A DNA stretch of 31,066 nt from a virus. This document shows positions 997-30,920 of the stretch, in pieces. Below the pieces are notes generated by a model that saw only the letters and a program-made list of their open reading frames with translations, made no database searches and was not told where the DNA came from. The translations under genes were made by a program, and so were the position numbers. Location of the stretch: positions 1 through 31,066 of the IMG/VR virus record IMGVR_UViG_3300001097_000042, one strand, 5' to 3'. Within the stretch, counting starts at the first letter, position 1. Each line of letters opens with the position of its first letter.

Positions 997-1638
997 TTAG
1001 ACCTCTTCCAGAATTACCGAAATATTCCAAAGGTCGAAGTTATTTCCACCACGCTTTATAACTGTGTAATTAAAATCATCAAAATAAACTTCAATGATTT
1101 GATTATATTGCTGTAGATGCGTATAGGCATTTGCATCACTTCCAAAATTATTGTATTTGTCATATGCTAGATACATCCAAAAAGGTCCCTTGTGGTTTTC
1201 ATACCAATCAAGTAGTTCAACTCCTCCAGCACCACCGTCTGCTGTGTGCTCTAGATTTTGAGAACCTGTATAGGCTGATTTGCCAGTAGTATTGCTAAAG
1301 TCTGGGGGAAGATAAAAACCTCTAGATGGAAGATTATTCCAAGACAACGACATATTTAATTTATCAGCAATATGGTAGGATCTCATTCTTCCATTGATAG
1401 TTCTTTGACGTTGCTCAATTCTGTTTGGTTTAAATTGCAGTTCCCCTCGATTATGGTCAGAGAGTATTAAGAACTGATCTAGAAGGGCTTCATCAGCCCC
1501 CTCTGGGGGTTCTGAGCCTATTTCAAAGCCTGTTGGTACATAAACCCCACCTTGCAGAGTTCCTGCGTTTTCAGACCAAAGTATAGCCTGTGGTCTTTGA
1601 TACCTACGACGACCTGTTAAATATGCTGCGGTAGCCAT
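997..1638 (-). CDS. Minor tail protein, distal-tail (Dit)-like by position
   Basis: A 213-residue protein encoded immediately after the tape measure gene; the tape measure stop and this start overlap as TAATG, so translation is probably coupled. In siphoviruses the gene after the tape measure usually encodes the distal tail protein that closes the tube and joins the baseplate. Here that is a positional inference: the sequence has an N-terminal basic stretch (TGRRRYQRPQ), many Asn, Tyr and Trp residues and a C-terminal segment (NFDLWNISVILEEV) that looks like a beta strand ending a tail-tip fold, but no diagnostic motif. The next gene starts one base after its stop, so the two form an operon with the tape measure gene. 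An alternative is a non-Dit minor tail protein. Confidence 0.75.
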   Translation of the reverse strand: MATAAYLTGRRRYQRPQAILWSENAGTLQGGVYVPTGFEIGSEPPEGADEALLDQFLILSDHNRGELQFKPNRIEQRQRTINGRMRSYHIADKLNMSLSWNNLPSRGFYLPPDFSNTTGKSAYTGSQNLEHTADGGAGGVELLDWYENHKGPFWMYLAYDKYNNFGSDANAYTHLQQYNQIIEVYFDDFNYTVIKRGGNNFDLWNISVILEEV

Positions 1639-4600
1639 TACTTTTGTCCTCTAATTCTTTGTGAATCAATATACTTAATCTGACCGATTACTGCTCTAGC
1701 AATATCATTAGAACTTGCACTTGATTGTGGAACTGTAATTCCAATATTATAATTATACATGGTGCTGGAGTTATCTGATACCGTTGTTGCTACAGATGTA
1801 ATTGTTGGTGCTACAACAGATGAGTTATTAGATGAATAGACTGCTGGAGTCATATCTTTAATCATTGAAGGGAACTTAGAGTTATTCATATTTTCAAGCA
1901 TTGGACCAAACCTCTTAGTCGCAGCCTTATTCATTACAAACTCTCCAGGTGTTAGCATTGAGGGAACGCTATCAGAACCTACACGACCACCAACAGCCAT
2001 ATAGTTAGGAACCATTCCACCATAGTTCATTGGCATAATTTTTCCACCATACATTTTGCCAGTAGGTTTAGGAGGGGTTCCAGAACTTGTGTAGGAAGTG
2101 TTTACTATATTTGTAGTTGTTATAATTCTATTTACATTTTCAGTAAGCGTAATTGTTTTATTTTTTAATGCTTGCCATGAAGCAAGAATTGCCGCTGTAT
2201 TTTTAGCAGACTTGCTTGTTTCTGCTTCAATTGACTTATACTTAGACTCTACTGCAGTTAACTCTGTATTTATAACTATCCATTGATCCTTTGTTTGACC
2301 CTGATAAGTAAGGCTACTGGTGAGTGCAGTTGTTTGTTTTTCATATTGATCTCTAGCAAGGGTTGCTTTTTCAAGAAGTTGTTGTGAAGGAACTAAAGAA
2401 TCACGTTGAACCTTATCAATCTCAAATTGATAATCTCTAATTTTTTTATTAATTGGCTCACGAAGAAGTTCTTTAGCATAAACTTGATCTTGTATAGCAA
2501 GAATTTGTGCTTCAACAACTTGACGCTGTTGTTCTAGTGCAAATGTTTGTTGACCTATCTGGAACTGACGTTCTTCAATTTGAACTCTTGTCATTCCACT
2601 AACTGTTGCCGCACCAATTTCTGATTGACGAGCAGCGGCAAGTGTTCCAGAAGATCTGCGTGATGCAGCCTCAGCAGAAGTTGCTCTCATTTCTTGTGCA
2701 GCAGCGGCAGCGGCTGATATATCTCCTTGGCTTAGTGCATCAGCAAGGGTAAGTCTTTGTTTTTCTTGTGCTGCAATTTCAGAATTAAGTTGAGAAATCT
2801 TAGTAAGTGCTTCTTCTTGTGCATCAAACTTAGCATTAATTCCTTCTTCTGCTTTATCAATAAGACCAAGGGTATTAGAAAGAATTGAAGACTCATCATT
2901 TAGATTGGCAAGAGGTCTATCAAAATTAATCTCAGCACTTCTTGTTAAAATATCAACCTGTGAATTAAGATTATCAATTATACGACTTCCGTAAATAGTA
3001 TTGTATTCTAAATCATGTTGTAATTCACCAATTTTACTTTGATAATCAGATATTACTTTTTCTGCTGCATCTATTGCAGCGGTCTGTGCATCAATCTGTG
3101 TATTCAAATCCTTAAATACTGGAGATGCTTCTCTTTCTTGTTGAACAAGTGCGCCTTGTGCATCAAAATAATCTGTTGCTTGGGAAAATGATTCTTTAAA
3201 GATTGAGAACTGACCTTCCCTAGTTTGCATATTTAAATTTTGTTGCAAATCTTTTACTGCTTGAGCAGCAGTTTTAGCATTTCTTGCCATCTTTAAAAGT
3301 TCTTCAGAACTAATATCTTTTCCATTTATGGCTACAGCAAGTTCAGCATCTGCAACCATCTCAATTGCTTGTGCAGCAGAAACTCCAGCAGCCGTTAACT
3401 TTTTAAATGCCTTTCCTTGAGCCTTGGTAGTATCTATAGTTTTTGCTTGTGTTATTTGATACTCTCCAATTACCGCTTCATCAAATGCTTCTTTAAGGGC
3501 TTTACCTTGTGAAGTTAATGTAGCCTTACCATTTTTAATTGTCATGTATGTTTTGCGTGTTTTATCATCCATCTGACTAATAAAATCTAAGAACTGAGTA
3601 TTCATTGCTCCTGGGGCTTGGTTCATAAGGTTTTGCATTACCCCGCCAAACTGAGTTAAACCTTTACCTTTAGTTACCTTTAATAATTCATTTATACCGC
3701 CAGTAGCATTAATGGATGCTTTACGAACCATCTTAAGTCTATTTAAAATATCGTCAAGTGTGGTGTCTCTTGCTTTTGGGTTTTTTACTTTAGTATCTGT
3801 TGTGAATGCTGTAGATGCTGCATTAAATCCTTTTGCAATATATTCTGGAACTGATAACCCTGCAGTTTTTGCTGCTGCTATGAGTGCGGGATCTTCTTTT
3901 CCAACTAAATAATTAACAAGAAGTGTCTTACTTATTAAATCTTTTCCTTCTGAAAGTAAGGTAAAATTAAGCAATGCATCTTTAAATAATTCTGGATTTG
4001 CTCCAGCAAGTTGTTGAACTACTGTTTTATTTATTGTTTTTGGCAATGTTGCAATTTTTGACAGTGCTGAATTTGCTAGTACAAGTTGTTCTGCTCCGTT
4101 TGTTTTTAAATCTAAAGTAACTCCATACGTTGGTTGAAACTTTGCAAGAATATTTAATGCTTCTATGTCTGTTTTTAAATCAACTTTATTGGTATTGATA
4201 TATTTTAACATAATATTAATTGTATTTGCATCTGCCCCAGTTTGAAATAATAATTGAAAAACTGTAGCAGCATCGGCAAATCCTGATTTATCAACTATAA
4301 ACTTTATTTTTTGTTCAATTTCTGGATTTTTCTTAGATAAGTCTAACATCTGAATTACAGTATTAGGATCTAAATCTCCAGAAGCAAAACCAATTTGTAT
4401 AACCTTTTTAAGATCTGAATTTGCAAAATTGTTTAATTCTTGTTCAGCAATGTCTTTAAATACTTTAACTGCATCTGAAGCATTTTCATATAAACTATCA
4501 ACTGATGAGTTGATCGCTTTATTAAAGTTTTCTGGAGATATTTTACTTGAAAGAGAAATAACATCATTTAGTGTTGTTTTGTTTGCAACATTTAATTGAT

Positions 4601-7600
4601 CCAAACTTATTTTTCTTTGTTTTTCAATATCTAAAATTTCTTGTTCAGTTTTTGCATTTTTAATTTTAGAATCATATTGTTGATTTAATCCATCTACAAG
4701 TTGTTGATTTTGAGTAATTGTTTCAAGACCTAATTGTAGCGTTGCTGAATCAAGTTTAGCGTTGTGTGCTTTTGCTTTATTTTGATCATAGACTGCTTTA
4801 AGAATTGCAGCAGTACCAGCAACGGCTAATCCTATTGCTACTGGTGCACCTACACCAGTTGCCGCAGCACCACCTGCGGCTGCAAAAAGTGCGGCTCCTC
4901 CACCAACTTGAGCAATTCCTGAACTAGGAACTAAAGATTTTCTATTATTTTGTGCTTGATCAAATGCTGTTTTTAAATTTTTAACAGATTCTTCTTTAAT
5001 TTTTAAAGAAATTTCAAGTGGATCTTTCAGAATATTTTCTCCATTTGGACCTAAAAGAGTTACAAGTTTACCACTTATCATTGCTGGTATTTCATAACTT
5101 CCTAGTTTTTCTCCAAGTGCTGATGAAATGCTCTGTGCTTGTGCTGTTGTTACTACTCCTTGAGATACAGCCATTGCTAATTGATTAGCCATATTTTGTG
5201 CAATTTCTTTTGGTGTTTTTCCTACTTTTGCTTGAGTTCCAATATCTGCAAGAAGACCTTTGCCAAAATCACTTTCAAGAACATTTTGTCCATATTGTCT
5301 TTGGGCATCAACTGTACCAGAAAGCAAGTTAGATCTTTTTCTTTGTGCTGCTTCACTTGCACTAACTGTTCCACTAATTACAGATAAATCAACTAATTTT
5401 TTAGAAGTCATTGACATTGCTTTAGCAAGATTAATTCCTTCTTGTCTTGCTGTTTCTATATCTTTGTTAAATTTCATAACTAGCCCACCTAATACTGCTA
5501 TTCCAGCAACAGCAGCAACCCAAGGGTTAGCCAATAGTGGAAGAAGCATTGCTATTCCTTGTAGTCCAAATACAAACGGCATAATCTGTTGTGCCATTTC
5601 TCCAACTTTTCCTCCAGCAAAAGAAGCAGCAATTGTTAAACCACTAACAGCGCCTATTCCTTTACTAGCCTTACTGCTAAACTCAGTTAATTGTTGTTTT
5701 GTAGTTATTTGAGCCTTGGTAGAATCATTCATGGCACTTGTTAATTTACCCTCTGCAGCAATCCTACGTTTTGCTTCTTTTAAACTTATCTTTTCTGTAG
5801 CGGCAATTAACTGTGCTCTTGATAGTTGTGCTGATTGTGATACCGTTCCAACTGTAGTGCTTCCAGTCTTTTGACCTGTTGGAATTCCATCTTCTGCTCC
5901 TGCAATTCTAAATTTTCCAAACCCTGGAACAAATGCTGAACGTCCAGATCTTAATGCTTTAGTTGTTTTTTTGTTAAGGATTGCTTCTCCTATGCCAACA
6001 CCGACTTGGCGTCGATCACTAGGTGCACCTCCAGCAACACCAACTGATGCAGGCTTTGCCCTTCCTGTTTGACCAGTAACAACTTCAGACTTTGTTTTTT
6101 TAAGTGGAGTTACATCAGCCAAAGTTTTCATTGGTTGAGAATAAAAATTACTTTTTGATCTATATTCTAATCCAGCAAGTACAGCCTTTGCTTGATAGGA
6201 ATTAGGGTTAATCCGTGCATCATATCTAGCAACAGAACGTAGTGTTTCTGCTGCTCTTGCATTTGTTGGATGTGTTCCAGACTGAAGTTTTTTAAGTTCA
6301 TTTCTATCAATACCCATTGATTTAAGTTGATCGTCAGACATGCCCGATAATGAACTACCAAGTTTACCCTTAACAGTATTTAAATAATTATTTACATATC
6401 CCAGATCTGCTACAAGGTTCTTAGATTTCCACTCTTTTACTCCAGCATTTCTTACTTCCTCAATATGTGAAGCCTGAACATTAAATAAATTCTTTTCTTG
6501 TGCTGGAGTTAAAACTACCCCTTGTCTTTTAAGAACTTCTTTAATTGCATTAGTTTCTTGCATAAATCCTGATTGTGATTGTTTTGCAAGAGATCTAATT
6601 GCTGATGGGGCTGATGTTCCAGAACCAGCACCGCGACCAATTGACAATCTTCTTTCAAGTTGTGAAGCAGTCATTGGTCTGCCTTGCTCAACATTTTTTT
6701 CTAAAGCCTTAAGAAGTTTGTCTTCTGAGTATCCCTTAGATGTTAATTCAGCAATTTTATTTTGAAGCCTTAATCCAGTATCCTGACTTTTTGTTGTAAA
6801 TGATCTTCCTCCAACATTTACAGTACCTTGTTCAAATTTTTGAATGCTTCCAGAAACAAGTGCTTCAATTAATGGTTGGAACTGAGGATTTTGTGCAATA
6901 TCTCTAGGAATAACTGCTTCACCTGGAGTAAGCATTGAAGCAACTGTGTCTTTGTTTCCAGATCCTGGAACATATGGTGTACCCTTTGCAAACTTCTTTG
7001 GTACTGCACCTTTACGACCAGGCATCATCATTCCTGGATTTGCTCTAGCAAAGTTTGCTGCAGCCACTGTAGCGTCAATATAGGCTTGACGCAATAGTCT
7101 AACTGCTGAACTTTCTGCTGTAAAAGATTGAGTTAGTCTTGTGTGTGCTTGGTTTAAAGATGCTGCAACGGTGGCTGCTTCCATCTGCTCTGTATTTAAA
7201 TAGTCTGTTTGTTGTGCAAGAATTTTTGAATTTCCGCCAAGTTTTAAGAAACCAACACGTAAGGCTAAAAACATTTTAATAATGTTGGCTGTTCCGTTAG
7301 CAAGAAGACCAAAAGCCATAAGCAGTGTTGGACCAATAATACCAACAAGAGTAGATGCTATAACAATAAACTTTTTAGTACCTTCTCCTAGATTGTTAAA
7401 CTTGTCAAGTACGTTTCCAATAACTTTTACGATTGGAGTTACTGCCTCTAAGAATGTTTTACCTATTGGAGCAATCGCTAGTTTAAGTTCTTCTACCGCT
7501 GACTTAAACTGAACTCCAACTGAGTCTTCTACAGTTTTTAATTCTCGTTCAGATAAAATTGCAAGTTGTTCAATGGATGAGCCTGCAAGGTCTAAAACCC

Positions 7601-8996
7601 TGCTTGCTTGTGTTCCATCTTTAATTACGTTTTGAAATAAAGTTGATAAACGTGAAAATTGAAACTTACCAAATAATTGTTCAATTGCACGGGCACGATT
7701 TAATGGATCCATTGTATCTAAGGCTTTTGAAAAATCAATAACTGTTTGTCTAATATTTCCTTGATTTCCTTCAACGATTCCGTTAATATTAATACCAAAT
7801 TCAGCAAACATCTCGCTAGCCTTTTTAGTTGGATTAATTAATGCTGCAAGACCAGATTTAAGTGCGTTAGCACCTTCTGAAGCATTGATTCCACCTTCTT
7901 TCATTGCTGTAAGGAAGAATGCTAGATCTTCTACATCTCCACCAAGTTGTTTAACTACTGGTCCTGCTTTAGGAACAGCAATTGTTAAATCTTCAATAGA
8001 AACAACTGTTTGGTTTTCTACTGCGTTAAGAAAATCAATCTTTTTTGCTAAATCCTCTGAAGCAATACCAAATGCATTAGTAAGTGATATTGTAGTTTCA
8101 AGTGCTTGGCTTTGCTCTACGCCACCAAGAACTGCAAGTCTATTGGCTTCTGCAACTTGGGCTGTAAGATCTGCCCCAGTTTTACCCATAGCGGCAGCCT
8201 GGGCTGCAAGTTCCATAGTTTTAACTGCAGCAACTCCATATTTAGTAAATTCTTCTGCTAACTGTTTAATATCATCAAGTGCTTTATTTGTTTGCTCTGT
8301 TGTTGTAAACATGTCGCCATAAACACGTTTAAACTTAACAGCCTGAACCTCAAGATCCATAAATGTTTTTGCTGCTGCTGTACCAAAATATGCAAGTGGA
8401 ACAGTAAAACCAACCATTAACTGGCGACCTGCCCATTGGGTATTCTTACCAAAGTTTAAAAGGTTTGTAGAACCTTGACGTATTAACTGATTAAACAAGG
8501 CTTGCTTCTGCGATGACATTGCCATCTTAGTGTTGTAGTCACTCATATCCAATGTTCTTGGAGTAATTGCCATTGCTCTCATTGCGCCAGATGAATCACG
8601 ACCCATCTTAATATATTGGGTCTGCATCTTCTTTACACGTTCTTCGGCTACCTTGCCAATTGTGTCAAATTCTTGTTTAAATAATTTACCAAAACTTTTG
8701 GTAGATCCGCCTGCATAACGGAAATACTCACGCATAGAAAGTTTATTGCCTTCAAGTGCGTGAGTAAACGACTCCGTTGAGGTTCTTACCAATCCCATCT
8801 GAGCAGAGAATTTGCCAGTGGCATTGATAGAGTTTAAAAGGTTAGTCTGTAGGTTTTTTTGTGCTGCAGATGATGCTGCACTATTTCTTGCTACAGATGA
8901 ATGGAAGGTTGCTAATTGACGTTGGAGATTTTTGAGTTCTGCCAGTGCCGCCGACGTATCAATATGTACGCCAATATTAGCATTTACATCAGCCAT
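1638..8996 (-). CDS. Tail tape measure protein (2452 aa)
   Basis: The longest gene of the window. It measures tail length during tube assembly and is ejected with the DNA. Residues about 190-530 read as the TP901-type tape measure core (AAKTFMDLEVQAVKFKRVYG, then the QTVVSIEDLTIAVPKAG and MKEGGINASEGANALKSG segments). Hydrophobic segments lie near residues 545-575, 1115-1175 and 1355-1395, as expected of a protein that enters the host membrane. Long Gln/Glu/Ala-rich coiled-coil regions fill residues about 1900-2250. The motif MLTPGE, usual near the end of this type of tape measure protein, occurs twice, near 688 and 2347. At roughly 0.15 nm per residue the tail would be about 350 nm, an inference from the general rule. 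AGAGG precedes the chosen ATG by 9 nt; the ATG four bases upstream hits a stop within four codons. No peptidase or muramidase motif was recognised. Confidence 0.97.
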   Translation of the reverse strand: MADVNANIGVHIDTSAALAELKNLQRQLATFHSSVARNSAASSAAQKNLQTNLLNSINATGKFSAQMGLVRTSTESFTHALEGNKLSMREYFRYAGGSTKSFGKLFKQEFDTIGKVAEERVKKMQTQYIKMGRDSSGAMRAMAITPRTLDMSDYNTKMAMSSQKQALFNQLIRQGSTNLLNFGKNTQWAGRQLMVGFTVPLAYFGTAAAKTFMDLEVQAVKFKRVYGDMFTTTEQTNKALDDIKQLAEEFTKYGVAAVKTMELAAQAAAMGKTGADLTAQVAEANRLAVLGGVEQSQALETTISLTNAFGIASEDLAKKIDFLNAVENQTVVSIEDLTIAVPKAGPVVKQLGGDVEDLAFFLTAMKEGGINASEGANALKSGLAALINPTKKASEMFAEFGININGIVEGNQGNIRQTVIDFSKALDTMDPLNRARAIEQLFGKFQFSRLSTLFQNVIKDGTQASRVLDLAGSSIEQLAILSERELKTVEDSVGVQFKSAVEELKLAIAPIGKTFLEAVTPIVKVIGNVLDKFNNLGEGTKKFIVIASTLVGIIGPTLLMAFGLLANGTANIIKMFLALRVGFLKLGGNSKILAQQTDYLNTEQMEAATVAASLNQAHTRLTQSFTAESSAVRLLRQAYIDATVAAANFARANPGMMMPGRKGAVPKKFAKGTPYVPGSGNKDTVASMLTPGEAVIPRDIAQNPQFQPLIEALVSGSIQKFEQGTVNVGGRSFTTKSQDTGLRLQNKIAELTSKGYSEDKLLKALEKNVEQGRPMTASQLERRLSIGRGAGSGTSAPSAIRSLAKQSQSGFMQETNAIKEVLKRQGVVLTPAQEKNLFNVQASHIEEVRNAGVKEWKSKNLVADLGYVNNYLNTVKGKLGSSLSGMSDDQLKSMGIDRNELKKLQSGTHPTNARAAETLRSVARYDARINPNSYQAKAVLAGLEYRSKSNFYSQPMKTLADVTPLKKTKSEVVTGQTGRAKPASVGVAGGAPSDRRQVGVGIGEAILNKKTTKALRSGRSAFVPGFGKFRIAGAEDGIPTGQKTGSTTVGTVSQSAQLSRAQLIAATEKISLKEAKRRIAAEGKLTSAMNDSTKAQITTKQQLTEFSSKASKGIGAVSGLTIAASFAGGKVGEMAQQIMPFVFGLQGIAMLLPLLANPWVAAVAGIAVLGGLVMKFNKDIETARQEGINLAKAMSMTSKKLVDLSVISGTVSASEAAQRKRSNLLSGTVDAQRQYGQNVLESDFGKGLLADIGTQAKVGKTPKEIAQNMANQLAMAVSQGVVTTAQAQSISSALGEKLGSYEIPAMISGKLVTLLGPNGENILKDPLEISLKIKEESVKNLKTAFDQAQNNRKSLVPSSGIAQVGGGAALFAAAGGAAATGVGAPVAIGLAVAGTAAILKAVYDQNKAKAHNAKLDSATLQLGLETITQNQQLVDGLNQQYDSKIKNAKTEQEILDIEKQRKISLDQLNVANKTTLNDVISLSSKISPENFNKAINSSVDSLYENASDAVKVFKDIAEQELNNFANSDLKKVIQIGFASGDLDPNTVIQMLDLSKKNPEIEQKIKFIVDKSGFADAATVFQLLFQTGADANTINIMLKYINTNKVDLKTDIEALNILAKFQPTYGVTLDLKTNGAEQLVLANSALSKIATLPKTINKTVVQQLAGANPELFKDALLNFTLLSEGKDLISKTLLVNYLVGKEDPALIAAAKTAGLSVPEYIAKGFNAASTAFTTDTKVKNPKARDTTLDDILNRLKMVRKASINATGGINELLKVTKGKGLTQFGGVMQNLMNQAPGAMNTQFLDFISQMDDKTRKTYMTIKNGKATLTSQGKALKEAFDEAVIGEYQITQAKTIDTTKAQGKAFKKLTAAGVSAAQAIEMVADAELAVAINGKDISSEELLKMARNAKTAAQAVKDLQQNLNMQTREGQFSIFKESFSQATDYFDAQGALVQQEREASPVFKDLNTQIDAQTAAIDAAEKVISDYQSKIGELQHDLEYNTIYGSRIIDNLNSQVDILTRSAEINFDRPLANLNDESSILSNTLGLIDKAEEGINAKFDAQEEALTKISQLNSEIAAQEKQRLTLADALSQGDISAAAAAAQEMRATSAEAASRRSSGTLAAARQSEIGAATVSGMTRVQIEERQFQIGQQTFALEQQRQVVEAQILAIQDQVYAKELLREPINKKIRDYQFEIDKVQRDSLVPSQQLLEKATLARDQYEKQTTALTSSLTYQGQTKDQWIVINTELTAVESKYKSIEAETSKSAKNTAAILASWQALKNKTITLTENVNRIITTTNIVNTSYTSSGTPPKPTGKMYGGKIMPMNYGGMVPNYMAVGGRVGSDSVPSMLTPGEFVMNKAATKRFGPMLENMNNSKFPSMIKDMTPAVYSSNNSSVVAPTITSVATTVSDNSSTMYNYNIGITVPQSSASSNDIARAVIGQIKYIDSQRIRGQK

Positions 8997-9017: not shown

Positions 9018-9350
9018 TTAGTTATTTGCAAGTACTGTATTTAAAAGAGTATTTGCATCTGTTAACTTAACTCCAGAAGCGGCTTCAATAACTTTATAGA
9101 CTGTTGGAAGATCTAAGATTTCTTCCAGTTTATTAATATCTGTAGACAAGTCTGGGTTGTACTGCTCCATTGCGATCTGTACACATTCAATAAGAAGAGT
9201 CATTGACTTCTCGTTATCTTCTGCCACCCCTGCTACCTGTTCGAACTTCTTCATAAAGGGACGAAGCAAAGAGATTTTAAGGGGTCTAACCTTAATCTTT
9301 GAGCCATCCATAAGAGTTAGTTCTGTGCCCTCATGTACCGTTGTTGCCAT
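9018..9350 (-). CDS. Short tail assembly chaperone (G-like)
   Basis: A 110-residue protein between the long chaperone gene and the tape measure gene, the position of lambda gpG. It is a clear paralogue of the first 100 residues of the protein encoded at 10236-9523: both begin MATT, share PLKI, LR.FM, FE.V.G, ECV.I.M.QY.P and end the domain with PTVYKV, roughly 40% identical by eye. It lacks the C-terminal T-like domain and stops after TLLNTVLANN. Such proteins coat the tape measure and recruit tube subunits. Translation has a strong site (GGAGG, 6 nt before ATG) and its own extended -10 promoter (9378-9386). Having it as a separate gene is odd because most phages make the short form from the same gene as the long form. 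Confidence 0.85.
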   Translation of the reverse strand: MATTVHEGTELTLMDGSKIKVRPLKISLLRPFMKKFEQVAGVAEDNEKSMTLLIECVQIAMEQYNPDLSTDINKLEEILDLPTVYKVIEAASGVKLTDANTLLNTVLANN

Positions 9351-9377
9351 GTATTTCCTCCTGTATAGGTTAACTCA

Positions 9378-9386
9378 ATTATAGCA
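9378..9386 (-). promoter_or_regulatory. Extended -10 promoter of short tail chaperone gene
   Basis: TGCTATAAT on the minus strand. Predicted transcription start is about 21 nt before the ATG at 9350; the leader carries GGAGG. No convincing -35 box is present. The element lies just past the stop of the endonuclease remnant, so the short chaperone can be transcribed apart from the long one. Confidence 0.6.
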
Positions 9387-9398
9387 TAGGGGGTTTGT

Positions 9399-9527
9399 TT
9401 ATTTTAAAGATTTTTTTAGATACCATATTGCTTTTATCAAAAGGTTGGGGTCGTCATTAAAGTTTCCAAGCCCGATATTGCATTTTTGGCATAACATTCC
9501 TCTTACAATACCAGTCTCAGTGTTATT
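9399..9527 (-). pseudogene. C-terminal remnant of an endonuclease VII-like homing endonuclease
   Basis: In the spacer between the two chaperone genes the minus strand encodes, after a stop, [18 protein letters not shown] followed by [20 protein letters not shown] and a stop at 9399-9401. This matches the C-terminal half of phage recombination endonuclease VII-type HNH proteins (TG.VRG.LC..CN.GLG.F.DDP..L..A..YL). The intact family member at 23042-22446 has VRGTLCQNCN and KDNPTILRLLADYI in the same order. The catalytic His/Asp part and everything N-terminal are missing; the reading starts inside the stop region of the long chaperone gene, in another frame. An internal ATG with no ribosome site could give at most 34 residues, so I call it a remnant of a deleted mobile endonuclease gene and not an active enzyme. 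Confidence 0.8.
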
Positions 9528-10236
9528 TTTTTATTACCGACGGGTCTCTTTCATCAGAATAATCGAGACCCATATTTATACCAAATCCTAGTTTAGCCGC
9601 TTTGGGTCCTTGTAGTGATAGAACATCGTTTGAATCACCCGTCTGACCTTTACTAAATACTCTTGCTTTCATGTCTTCCCACTCTTGCTGTCCCTTGCCT
9701 TTTCCAGACTCTTTATCTAAGTCCACACCTTGGATTGCAGCCATAAACTTTTTTTCAGCATAATCTAATTCTCTGCTAACCTCTAATGTTGCCATGAGTT
9801 CTGGCATAGATAGTGATGTTTCTAATTCTTGATAATCTTTCCAAATTCCCAGCAAAAATACTTCAGACTCTAATTTTGCTAAATCAAGATCATCCCAACT
9901 AGAGCCACTTTCTACTGCCTGATTCTTGACTGGCTCTTCAGATTTTTTGTTAATCTTAATTCCAGCAGAAACATCTAAAACCTTATAAACTGTAGGCATA
10001 TCTATGCTGTCTTCTATATCTTCAACGCTGCCAGATATTGATGGATAATATTGCTTCATGCATATTCTTACACACTCTACTAGTTTTTCAATTGCTTCGT
10101 CATCATCTTTTGTACCCTTGACATTTTCAAAAGCATGCATAAACTCACGAAGATATCTAATCTTAAGAGGTGTTATTTCTAGTTCTGTTCCGTCAAATAA
10201 ATGTATTATTTCACTTTTATATATTGTAGTTGCCAT
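9523..10236 (-). CDS. Long tail assembly chaperone (GT-like, continuous reading frame)
   Basis: A 237-residue protein with two parts. Residues 1-100 are the G-like domain shared with the short chaperone at 9350-9018. A linker ([13 protein letters not shown]) leads to a T-like domain, residues about 115-237, with [20 protein letters not shown] and [11 protein letters not shown], typical of the C-terminal extension that siphoviruses normally add by a programmed frameshift. Here the two are fused in one frame. The protein should bind the tape measure through G and tube subunits through T. There is no Shine-Dalgarno site; an extended -10 element (TGGTAGAAT) ends 9 nt before the ATG, so the mRNA is leaderless or nearly so. 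The major tail gene's terminator lies immediately upstream. Confidence 0.88.
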
Positions 10237-10245
10237 AGAAATTCT

Positions 10246-10254
10246 ATTCTACCA
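10246..10254 (-). promoter_or_regulatory. Extended -10 promoter of long tail chaperone gene
   Basis: TGGTAGAAT on the minus strand, 9 nt before the ATG at 10236, with no ribosome-binding site between them. A second overlapping TAGAAT lies 4 nt from the ATG. The element sits just downstream of the UUCG-loop terminator, as expected for a new transcription unit. Confidence 0.5.
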
Positions 10255-10265
10255 CAAAACAACAA

Positions 10266-10289
10266 AGCCCATATCCGAAGACATGGGCT
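10266..10289 (-). terminator. Intrinsic terminator of the major tail protein gene
   Basis: On the minus strand a 10-bp stem (AGCCCATGTC with GATATGGGCT, one G-U pair) closes a TTCG tetraloop and is followed by TTTGTTGTTTTG. The C(UUCG)G loop and T-rich tail are classic for factor-independent termination. It begins about 20 nt after the stop of the major tail gene and would cut off most read-through into the chaperones. Confidence 0.9.
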
Positions 10290-10308
10290 CTGATGAATAG
10301 TTAAACTA

Positions 10309-10947
10309 TTAAGATAGTAGGTCTCCGAAAGTACGATCAACGATCTTACCGTATGAGCCTGAAGTATCTTCTGGTAGTAAACGGAATGAAACTTCAAACA
10401 TTGAAGCCTCATCACGCTTTGCAGAAACTGTTACGTTTTCAATAGACAAAGCACGGTATGCTGTGTAGACACGCTCCACGAATGGAGAATCTACGCAATC
10501 ACCTGTACCAGGTCCTACTGCAACAATTCCACGCTCTACTGGACACTCACCGATATCTCCTGCAGAAAGGTTCAAAACCTGTCCTGAGTTAGATGCCTTT
10601 GTGCCAGTTAGTTCTTCTGATTTGAATGCAAGTGACAAGAGAAGATTCTCTAGTGTTGCTTCTGCAAAAGCAGTTGCAAGGTTAACCTGCATGCCTTGCT
10701 TGTAAAGTTTTGCAACGTCAAGAATTTGGTCTACCTGGACTTCACCGAAGTCTGGTTGGAACTGCATTTCTAGACCGTTCATGGTGTAACCTACGTTTGT
10801 ATATGCTGCATCATCTGAGAGTGTTTCTCTGAATGATACTTCTGTATCAAAGTTTTCCAGTGTTCCTGGAGTTAGGGTTGTGTCTGCAACAAAAAGTGCT
10901 GCTGCTCCAACGATAATGTTGGTAGACGTTCCACGACTGTATGCCAT
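10309..10947 (-). CDS. Major tail (tube) protein
   Basis: A 212-residue protein of the size and position of siphovirus tube proteins: it follows the neck genes and precedes the tail chaperones. The start MAYSRGTSTNIIVGAAALFV, the central GLEMQFQPDFGEVQVDQILD and the final FEVSFRLLPEDTSGSYGKIVDR fit the beta-sandwich tube family in which each virion carries hundreds of copies. AGAGG lies 7 nt before the ATG. The gene is isolated by its own extended -10 promoter (11010-11018) and a strong terminator (10266-10289), giving a single-gene transcript, which fits a need for far more product than its neighbours. No Ig-like decoration domain is seen at the C-terminus. Confidence 0.88.
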   Translation of the reverse strand: MAYSRGTSTNIIVGAAALFVADTTLTPGTLENFDTEVSFRETLSDDAAYTNVGYTMNGLEMQFQPDFGEVQVDQILDVAKLYKQGMQVNLATAFAEATLENLLLSLAFKSEELTGTKASNSGQVLNLSAGDIGECPVERGIVAVGPGTGDCVDSPFVERVYTAYRALSIENVTVSAKRDEASMFEVSFRLLPEDTSGSYGKIVDRTFGDLLS

Positions 10948-22445: not shown

Positions 22446-23042
22446 TCATTTATTTTTATGTCTATCAATATAGTCAGCAAGGAGCCTAAGAATTGTGGGG
22501 TTATCTTTTGCTTGTCCCATAGATCTATTGCAGTTTTGGCATAAGGTTCCACGAACACATTTTCCACAAGATATTCTTTTATTGCAACATTCGTGATCGT
22601 GATCAATTGTTAGGTTTTCTAACGATCCGCACACTTCACATGGATTAGATAACATTGTTATTAATTGCTCTGATGTTAGATTATATGTTCTTTTTGTGGC
22701 ATCGTGCGTTCCGCATAGCCTAACTGCTTTGTGTTTATTTGAACAATATGGAACATCACAATCAACTTTATTATAAATTAGTTTTTTAATTGGAACCTCT
22801 GCGCTAATATTTCCAGTATTTAAAAATCTATAGTAATGGCTAGAGCAATAGTTTAAAGAATAATGTTTTTTTGTACATTTTTTAACAATACAAAACTGAG
22901 GACGTTTTTCTTGTTTTTTTGCACCAAGATCTCTTCTTTTTTTTTCTCTATAATGATTATGGCAAAGTCTTTTGGCATGAACCGTTTTATTACAATCTGC
23001 AAAGATACATAAATCATTTGAATCTTGTACATTATCAATCAT
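22446..23042 (-). CDS. Endonuclease VII-like homing endonuclease with three zinc fingers
   Basis: A 198-residue free-standing endonuclease. Three tandem C-x4-C-x9-C-x2-H units lie at C12/C17/C27/H30, C51/C56/C66/H69 and C95/C100/C110/H113; they probably bind zinc and contact DNA. The C-terminal nuclease domain is of the recombination endonuclease VII/HNH type: C135-x2-C138, the IDHDH active-site segment (146-150), VRGTLCQNCN (163-172, with C168 and C171) and KDNPTI. Such genes copy themselves into cut relatives of the phage and often sit beside conserved genes, here the reductase. There is no Shine-Dalgarno site; TGGTACAAT ends 6 nt before the ATG, implying a leaderless mRNA. Whether it cuts within the reductase gene of related phages is an inference. 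Confidence 0.9.
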   Translation of the reverse strand: MIDNVQDSNDLCIFADCNKTVHAKRLCHNHYREKKRRDLGAKKQEKRPQFCIVKKCTKKHYSLNYCSSHYYRFLNTGNISAEVPIKKLIYNKVDCDVPYCSNKHKAVRLCGTHDATKRTYNLTSEQLITMLSNPCEVCGSLENLTIDHDHECCNKRISCGKCVRGTLCQNCNRSMGQAKDNPTILRLLADYIDRHKNK

Positions 23043-29632: not shown

Positions 29633-30174
29633 TATGCCAACCCTGCTTTCATTGATCCCCATGTACCGTTGCCTTTAGGCTGCCCAACAACAATTGCACC
29701 AGTTGATGCATTTGCCTTTAAAACAACCGCTACAGCCCCTGAGCCGCCTTCTGGCTGGGTATCTGTTAGTCCTCCACCATTTGCTACATAAAGTACGTCT
29801 CCTGCTGTGTATGAGGATGTGTTAAGTGGAATATCTGCGTTACCAGAAAAAATACCAGAAACAATAATAACTCCATCAGAGCCATTAGAAATATTTGATT
29901 GTGCTAATCCAATTACTGGAAATGTTGCAAGATTATCTGAGTCAGATTTTGCGACGGTAGTTTTAGTTGAATACCCAGTAGCATATACTGGATCTCCTTT
30001 ATTAATTGTTACACCGCTAGAGTTTTTAACTTCATATGTAAAATAAGGTAATCCCAAACCTGGAAGTACAAGTTCAATCTGTTCTGCTAACGATTGTATA
30101 TCGCCGTGCACGTTTACCGTGTCAGTTAATAACGGAAAGGGGAGATCATAAATTGCGGTAGCGCCAGTAGCCAT
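29632..30174 (-). CDS. Fibre-block protein, probable capsid or tail decoration (180 aa)
   Basis: A 180-residue protein opening the leftward operon. Its first 45 residues are helical; the rest is a Gly/Ser/Thr-rich beta domain with repeated phrases such as SGVTINKGDPVYATGYSTKT, IGLAQSNISNGSDGVIIVSG and SSYTAGDVLYVANGGG. This G.V....G....T..Y..GD.LYV form is widespread in environmental phage structural proteins, often near fibres, and looks like the DUF2190-type decoration fold, though I cannot verify that. There is no Shine-Dalgarno site; TGGTATAAT ends 6 nt before the ATG, so the mRNA is leaderless. Its stop overlaps the next start as TAATG. Confidence 0.7.
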   Translation of the reverse strand: MATGATAIYDLPFPLLTDTVNVHGDIQSLAEQIELVLPGLGLPYFTYEVKNSSGVTINKGDPVYATGYSTKTTVAKSDSDNLATFPVIGLAQSNISNGSDGVIIVSGIFSGNADIPLNTSSYTAGDVLYVANGGGLTDTQPEGGSGAVAVVLKANASTGAIVVGQPKGNGTWGSMKAGLA

Positions 30175-30189: not shown

Positions 30190-30303
30190 TTTCTCTTGGC
30201 TTTTTGGTTAAATTACACAAATAACATATTAGTCCATACTTTTCTAAAGTTTGAACTCATATATTGATTTTATCACATAAACTTGCTTTTTATTCCAAAT
30301 TCA

Positions 30304-30312
30304 TGCTACAAT
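30304..30312 (+). promoter_or_regulatory. Extended -10 promoter of the lysozyme-like gene
   Basis: TGCTACAAT on the plus strand, with TTGCTT 18 bp upstream (30283-30288) as a possible -35 box, the only site here with one. The predicted start is near 30319. Confidence 0.55.
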
Positions 30313-30318
30313 TAATAC

Positions 30319-30340
30319 AATGCTGCCGAAGGGTAGCATT
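30319..30340 (+). promoter_or_regulatory. 5'-terminal stem-loop of the lysozyme-like mRNA
   Basis: AATGCTGCC-GAAG-GGTAGCATT, a 9-bp stem (one G-U pair) with a tetraloop, beginning 6 nt after the -10 element, at the predicted first base of the mRNA. TGTTTCT follows, so weak attenuation is also possible. Confidence 0.6.
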
Positions 30341-30365
30341 TGTTTCTAGAAAGAAGGTTTTTACT

Positions 30366-30920
30366 ATGAAAAGAGACAACAGTAAAAAGGCTTGGTTTGG
30401 CTTGATAGCGATAGTTGGTTTAATTGCACCTTTTTGCAATGCCGCTAAGGCTCTTGAAACTAAAACTCTAATTAAAACTCCCATAGAGTCAGAAGCAGCC
30501 CTTAAAGGGGCTTTTTTGGTTTCTAAAGAACAAATATTAGATAAGTATGAAAACGCCCATAATTTAAACGATGGGCAATTAATTGAACTATTAAAGGCTG
30601 TGGGGTTTAAAAGTAAGGCTTTACGATCTGCTTGTGCAATCACTAAGGCTGAGACTAATGGAAGACCGCTTGCTTTTAATGGTAATCTAAAAACTGGAGA
30701 TAGTTCATACGGGATGTTTCAAATAAACATGATCGGTAATCTAGGTCCAGATCGCAGAGATAAGTTTGATTTAAGTTCAAACGCTGAGTTATTTAACCCA
30801 GTTACAAATGCACAGGTGGCGCTTCACATGACAAAAAGCGGAACAGATTGGTCATCATGGTCATCCCTCAATGGGAAACGGTATCAGGAATGGTACAACA
30901 AATATCCATGTAAAGCATAA
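30366..30920 (+). CDS. Secreted lysozyme-like / SLT transglycosylase protein (184 aa)
   Basis: The only rightward gene. The N-terminus is a signal peptide: basic MKRDNSKK, hydrophobic AWFGLIAIVGLIAPFC, and a likely cut after NAAKA (residue 29). The mature part carries an SLT/lysozyme-like domain, residues about 80-182, with the probable catalytic E96 in ITKAETNGRPLAFNGN, then SSYGMFQINM (113-122) and WSSWSSLNGKRYQEW. It should cleave peptidoglycan outside the membrane, as an exported endolysin. AGAAGG lies 8 nt before the ATG at 30366; a longer in-frame start at 30264 would precede the promoter and destroy the signal peptide. A promoter, a 5' hairpin and a terminator make it a single-gene unit. 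A virion-bound lysozyme or a superinfection protein are alternatives; no holin is seen beside it. Confidence 0.85.
   Translation: MKRDNSKKAWFGLIAIVGLIAPFCNAAKALETKTLIKTPIESEAALKGAFLVSKEQILDKYENAHNLNDGQLIELLKAVGFKSKALRSACAITKAETNGRPLAFNGNLKTGDSSYGMFQINMIGNLGPDRRDKFDLSSNAELFNPVTNAQVALHMTKSGTDWSSWSSLNGKRYQEWYNKYPCKA

Follow-up and report, generated by a model that had tools for sequence, protein, structure and literature searches.

A single gene with a slip, from which both tail assembly chaperone forms G and GT are made, is the rule in long-tailed phages (PMC5009743), and an open issue for this conserved frameshift is whether the slip itself is needed or only the ratio that results from it. The chaperone locus of the window (the whole 31,066-nt stretch analysed here, part of the uncultivated phage record G000) raises this question in an unusual form, as two adjacent genes, read from the genes alone, predict two products that share a G domain and of which one carries a T extension. 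We conclude from comparative evidence that the long (GT) and short (G) chaperone forms have very probably been split into separate paralogous genes that replace the slip, an interpretation put forward in a preliminary description of this DNA and supported by the relatives examined below. If this is true, the hard-wired clade to which the window belongs amounts to a natural experiment that asks why other phages have conserved the frameshift so strongly.

Organization of the chaperone locus

The structural genes of the window lie on the minus strand in the order tail tube, long gene, short gene and tape measure, so that the chaperone gene pair sits between the tail tube and tape measure genes as expected of G/GT (Table 1). 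The same gene order was found in Streptomyces phages, in which genes annotated as "major tail protein" occupy the place equivalent to that of the tail tube gene. The coordinates given in the preliminary description proved exact; two further features, the terminator hairpin and the endonuclease VII remnant, had been overlooked. Within the long protein, the G domain spans approximately residues 1-96, the linker residues 97-112, and the T domain residues 113-237.

Table 1. Coordinates of features at and around the chaperone locus (window numbering).
Feature	Position	Strand	Basis or remark
Tail tube (major tail) protein, upstream neighbour	10309..10947	-	Profile match; Streptomyces phage synteny
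Intrinsic terminator hairpin	10263..10292	-	After tail tube gene, just upstream of long gene promoter
Extended -10 TGGTAGAAT of long gene	10246..10254	-	Ends 9 nt before ATG; predicted leaderless
Long gene, in-frame GT tail assembly chaperone, 237 aa	9523..10236	-	ORF, profile matches, survey
AAC AAA AAA TCT in long gene linker	9940..9951	-	Position homologous to single-gene slip site
Endonuclease VII/HNH remnant, C-terminal 40 aa	9399..9521	-	phrog_2633 (7e-12); PF02945 (1e-10)
Extended -10 TGCTATAAT of short gene	9378..9386	-	Motif scan
AGGAGG Shine-Dalgarno of short gene	9357..9362	-	Before short ATG
Short gene, G-only chaperone paralog, 110 aa	9018..9350	-	Directly upstream of tape measure gene
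GAT GCA AAT in short gene	9051..9059	-	Homologous to GAC CCA AAY (C CCA AAY heptamer) of single-gene relatives
Tape measure protein, downstream neighbour	1638..8996	-	phrog_10030 (3e-94)

The gap between the long and short genes measured 172 nt in the window and approximately 26-69 nt in nearly all relatives. The endonuclease VII remnant lies in this gap, between the long stop and the short promoter, and was present only in the window's phage and one other locus (L003) while being absent from close relatives; it resembles what is left of a homing endonuclease that inserted here and has since decayed, with the promoter of the short gene left intact. An intact endonuclease VII-like gene was observed elsewhere in the window (22446-23042). 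Opposite the structural genes, positions 30264-30920 (+) hold a long plausible gene with a signal-peptide-like start that appeared lysozyme- or transglycosylase-like by eye.

Paralogy and identity of the two chaperone genes

The two N-terminal domains had been described as the same domain encoded twice, approximately 40% identical by eye, and BLASTP bore this out with 41 identical residues over 96 (43%), 72% positives, and a score of 94.4 bits (E 7e-30). The shared motifs on which that description rested (MATT, PLKI, LRxFM, ECVxIxMxQYxP, and PTVYKV) were all found as listed. Both proteins matched phrog_10504 (3e-24 for the long and 3e-20 for the short protein), while the T-like domain of the long protein, encoded in the same frame as its G domain and homologous to the T of Streptomyces phages, corresponded to phrog_10474 (4e-15); these matches agree with the assignment of an in-frame T-like domain to the upstream gene and of G only to the downstream gene. 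Matches by tblastn were obtained in 127-130 phage records, many of which carry the annotation tail assembly chaperone, and 6 of 60 aligned relatives matched phrog_1932 (tail assembly chaperone).

In both structure models the G domain consists of a beta hairpin followed by four helices in the same order. The top PDB match of the short model, by Foldseek as well as VIA-align, was HK97 gp13 (2OB9), a weak match (E 1.3; Z 4.6, rmsd 6.2, 83 residues aligned). The long model matched a predicted viral chaperone (E 2.5e-4) and N15 GT (E 0.035) and had no useful fold match in the PDB; a sequence search against solved structures likewise gave no meaningful match. Gene order and homology, taken with these mostly weak structural matches, identify both genes as tail assembly chaperones. 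Both copies are under purifying selection, with median Ka/Ks values of 0.23 for the long G domain, 0.13 for T, and 0.13 for the short G.

Two architectures among relatives

Six IMG/VR scans and annotated phage records yielded 489 loci, some of which share a contig, and each was classed with G and T profiles in three frames. Loci of the first kind, represented by 243 distinct sequences, encode an in-frame GT followed by a separate second G; those of the second kind (61 distinct sequences, including the Streptomyces Stanwilliamsviridae) encode G once, with T following at -1. A mixed architecture was not found among the 489 loci, and the few loci with a partial set of domains are incomplete stretches. 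T invariably lies at -1 to G in the second kind. In the first kind the second G occurred in all three frames with respect to T (91, 79, and 70 loci), an arbitrary relationship of the sort expected for an independent gene.

Copy number followed the same division. Whole records contained two G copies in each of seven duplicated phages and one in each of 11 single-gene phages, and each of 127 Streptomyces phage records held one G place; thus, neither the whole-record searches nor those of the Streptomyces phage records found a second G elsewhere in single-gene phages. Chaperone copies were also sought in bacterial genome contigs, where none was confirmed. A search of relatives for one or two copies had been proposed with the preliminary description, and both types, one copy with a slip and two copies with a fused GT, proved to be present. 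A sequencing or assembly error as the source of the in-frame fusion was ruled out by the occurrence of the same state in 243 distinct sequences. One locus (L142) stood alone in having a broken long frame, which breaks at codon 133 with T homology resuming in another frame and may reflect a sequencing error or a recent mutation. Another locus (L188), considered as an intermediate with a second G, turned out to have a single chaperone gene with GGGAAAC, its tape measure gene having a promoter of its own.

Origin of the second copy

In the G tree, the long copies formed one clade (100/100) and the short copies another (98/98), the latter grouping with the G of environmental single-gene phages (98/97). 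Because long and short copies each form one clade, the change most likely happened once, and the copies would be old and common to the whole clade. We took the single-gene state as ancestral, since several separate lineages share it and long-tailed phages as a rule have it. The remaining trees were not uniform. Most environmental single-gene phages were placed beside the duplicated clade by the tape measure tree, whereas the T and tail tube trees placed environmental single-gene phages (the L260 group) inside it, which the tape measure and G trees did not; AU tests did not reject one duplicated clade (p 0.29 and 0.20). This discordance points to recombination or a more complex history, and recombination around the chaperone locus is likely.

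These trees bear on an alternative in which the long GT gene is a xenolog that entered by recombination with another phage, and the resident gene then lost T and its slip site. A GT unit may have been gained horizontally, given the length of the stem of the long-G clade (0.82); the position of this clade outside the group of short and environmental single-gene copies and the signs of recombination among the tail tube, T, and tape measure trees are also in its favour. The survey, however, contained no donor lineage with an in-frame GT alone, and the T domains of GT and of the environmental single-gene phages are close (97/98). We regard acquisition as unlikely, though worth keeping in view, and infer instead that the extra copy would have come from tandem duplication and not from recombination with another phage. 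The present-day working of the locus would be the same under either history.

Promoters, leaders and terminator

Separate promoters had been proposed for the two genes, with a leaderless message for the long gene and GGAGG for the short gene; the motifs were found at the places given, and both are conserved in relatives. For the long gene, promoter matches of at least 7/8 occurred in 136 of 144 distinct loci, compared with approximately 5% of shuffles. The spacing from the -10 element to the ATG was 5-9 nt in 141 of the 143 scored loci and a Shine-Dalgarno-like sequence was found in 0 of 144; on the basis of this spacing and the lack of a Shine-Dalgarno, the long gene is predicted to be leaderless. 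For the short gene, a perfect TGNTATAAT was present in all 146 distinct loci, mostly 23-29 nt before the ATG, and a Shine-Dalgarno-like sequence in 142 of them. Single-gene relatives share the layout of the short gene (Shine-Dalgarno in 56 of 56, spacing 22-42 nt). It is thus the short gene that resembles the ancestral expression unit, the control of the long gene appearing to be new. In one subgroup (L035 and L043) the short promoter overlaps the long stop (CTT ATG CTA TAA), such that the -10 element encodes the long C-terminus (LML stop).

TGNTATAAT is a phage-wide -10 motif, with 11 occurrences in the window compared with 2.7 expected. Three other minus-strand starts, near 30174, 29006, and 23042, lie 6-7 nt after an extended -10 (TGGTATAAT, TGATATAAT, and TGGTACAAT, respectively), which suggests that leaderless messages may be common in the window's phage.

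The terminator hairpin upstream of the long gene promoter has a folding energy of -22.4 kcal/mol (z -6.5), and similar hairpins occur upstream in related loci. The window showed no terminator between the long and short genes, and transcription from the first promoter can therefore run on through the short gene. Promoter strength, read-through and initiation mode would thus be expected to act jointly on the G:GT ratio, which the preliminary description ascribes to the two promoters.

Whether this ratio still matters in the manner of lambda may be questioned on the ground that the short protein and the G half of the long one can perhaps no longer replace each other, the two proteins being fixed partners in a hetero-complex to which a free G:GT ratio of the lambda type is irrelevant. 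The divergence of the long G from the short G (the 43% identity given above) and the weaker constraint on the long G (Ka/Ks of 0.23 versus 0.13) are consistent with such a specialization. The contrast in promoter and leader between the two genes, however, has been kept across the clade, which suggests that relative dose still matters, and we consider fixed partnership doubtful.

Fate of the slip site

In loci of the second kind, a heptamer lies near the 3' end of G, close to the G stop, and the -1 frame reads through it without a stop. A slip heptamer was identified in 23 of 27 single-gene representatives, and the other four share CCCGGAA. The heptamer C CCA AAY/A occurs in most environmental single-gene phages and in the Loccivirinae, C CCG GAA in the Boydwoodruffvirinae, and G GGA AAC in three loci (L188, L438, and L484). 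Rhodococcus phage NiceHouse, whose T is homologous, carries G GGA AAA, and its chaperone is annotated as a two-piece join. A -1 frameshift has been predicted for Streptomyces phage Phredrick (PMC10793280), and we found that the T of this phage, a member of the same homology group, matches as well.

Neither copy in the duplicated clade retains such a conserved site. In the short gene the heptamer is destroyed, with KLTDAN in place of the KLNDPN of single-gene relatives, and no T follows downstream; a chance in-frame TTTAAAT in the window's short gene is likewise without T downstream. At the homologous position in the long linker the slippery pattern is not conserved, relatives reading AAG AAG TCT, AAG CAA TCC, AGT GGT TCA, or AAG TCA TCT, and this codon comparison ruled out a conserved leftover slip there. 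Canonical in-frame heptamers, assorted and non-conserved, were found in 10 long linkers and 4 short 3' ends among 54 representatives. With T in frame in the long gene and no conserved slip site, the locus falls outside the frameshift-dependent G/GT type, and the loss of the slip asserted in the preliminary description is upheld by nearest relatives that keep a -1 slip site. A slip at C AAA AAA T by which the long gene would still supply a short form, the short gene being an extra specialised paralog, is highly improbable, for although a -1 shift after AAC AAA AAA TCT GAA in the window meets an immediate TGA (ATC TGA) and would give a G-sized product, and the long gene of locus L298 keeps an in-frame CCCAAAT (around 2785; relic or chance) at which a -1 slip runs at once into TAA, the C AAA AAA T stretch is neither a canonical heptamer nor conserved, and the few canonical linker heptamers are of assorted types.

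Proposed replacement of the slip by two genes

We propose that the ancestor had one G gene on which some ribosomes slipped by -1 at a heptamer near the G stop to give GT, a mechanism that the nearest relatives seem to have retained. One duplication would have been followed by an indel that brought G and T of the upstream copy into one frame, while the downstream copy would have kept G, its original promoter and its Shine-Dalgarno and lost T and the slip heptamer. The upstream copy, preceded by a terminator, would now be transcribed from a promoter of its own into a leaderless message, and the downstream copy from a consensus extended -10 promoter with a strong Shine-Dalgarno, so that the short product presumably exceeds the long one and provides the excess otherwise provided by the slip. 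The proteins and their ratio, how the promoters compare in strength, and the sequence of events are all inferred from DNA comparisons. A large clade of uncultivated phages is thus likely to have dropped an otherwise nearly universal frameshift and hard-wired the two forms as two genes, with the ratio moved to gene-specific transcription and initiation.

A clade with two genes whose nearest relatives have a slip suggests that phages can do without the slip as long as they are supplied with both forms. The clade and its slip-keeping relatives offer ready-made pairs for measuring the required ratio, and they would constitute a comparative case of gene duplication replacing programmed frameshifting in which both derived copies and the ancestral-type state are at hand.

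Comparison with known systems

The tail assembly chaperone pair is of a known kind, whose members characteristically bind the tape measure and tail tube proteins and are missing from the virion; what appears to be new here is that it would be made without a frameshift. In the open-access literature we found no report of a natural in-frame or duplicated chaperone, a weak negative given that most subscription papers lie outside that scope. Lambda, the HK97 family, and TP901-1, which use a -1 frameshift for G/GT, resemble the window in having the genes between tail tube and tape measure and in making G together with a T-extended form, but the window has two genes, separate promoters, and no conserved slip site. 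Closer at hand, the Stanwilliamsviridae (Coruscant, Evy, Circinus, Jada, and Phredrick) and NiceHouse have T homologs with the same neighbours, the Streptomyces phages have G homologs as well, and the promoter and Shine-Dalgarno layout of G in single-gene relatives is that of the window's short gene. Unlike the window, these Streptomyces phages and NiceHouse have one G and reach T at -1 via CCCAAAT (Circinus and Jada), CCCGGAA (Coruscant and Evy), or GGGAAAA (NiceHouse).

A phage with fused GT would be expected to require G from elsewhere, and the short gene would supply it, since the permanent gpG-gpT fusion in TP901-1 gave particles without infectivity (PMC4493119) and the G:GT ratio in lambda is approximately 30:1 (PMC5009743). 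The engineered TP901-1 fusion is like the long gene in that the frame is fused and only GT is made from the gene; it had no separate G, whereas the natural phages described here carry one.
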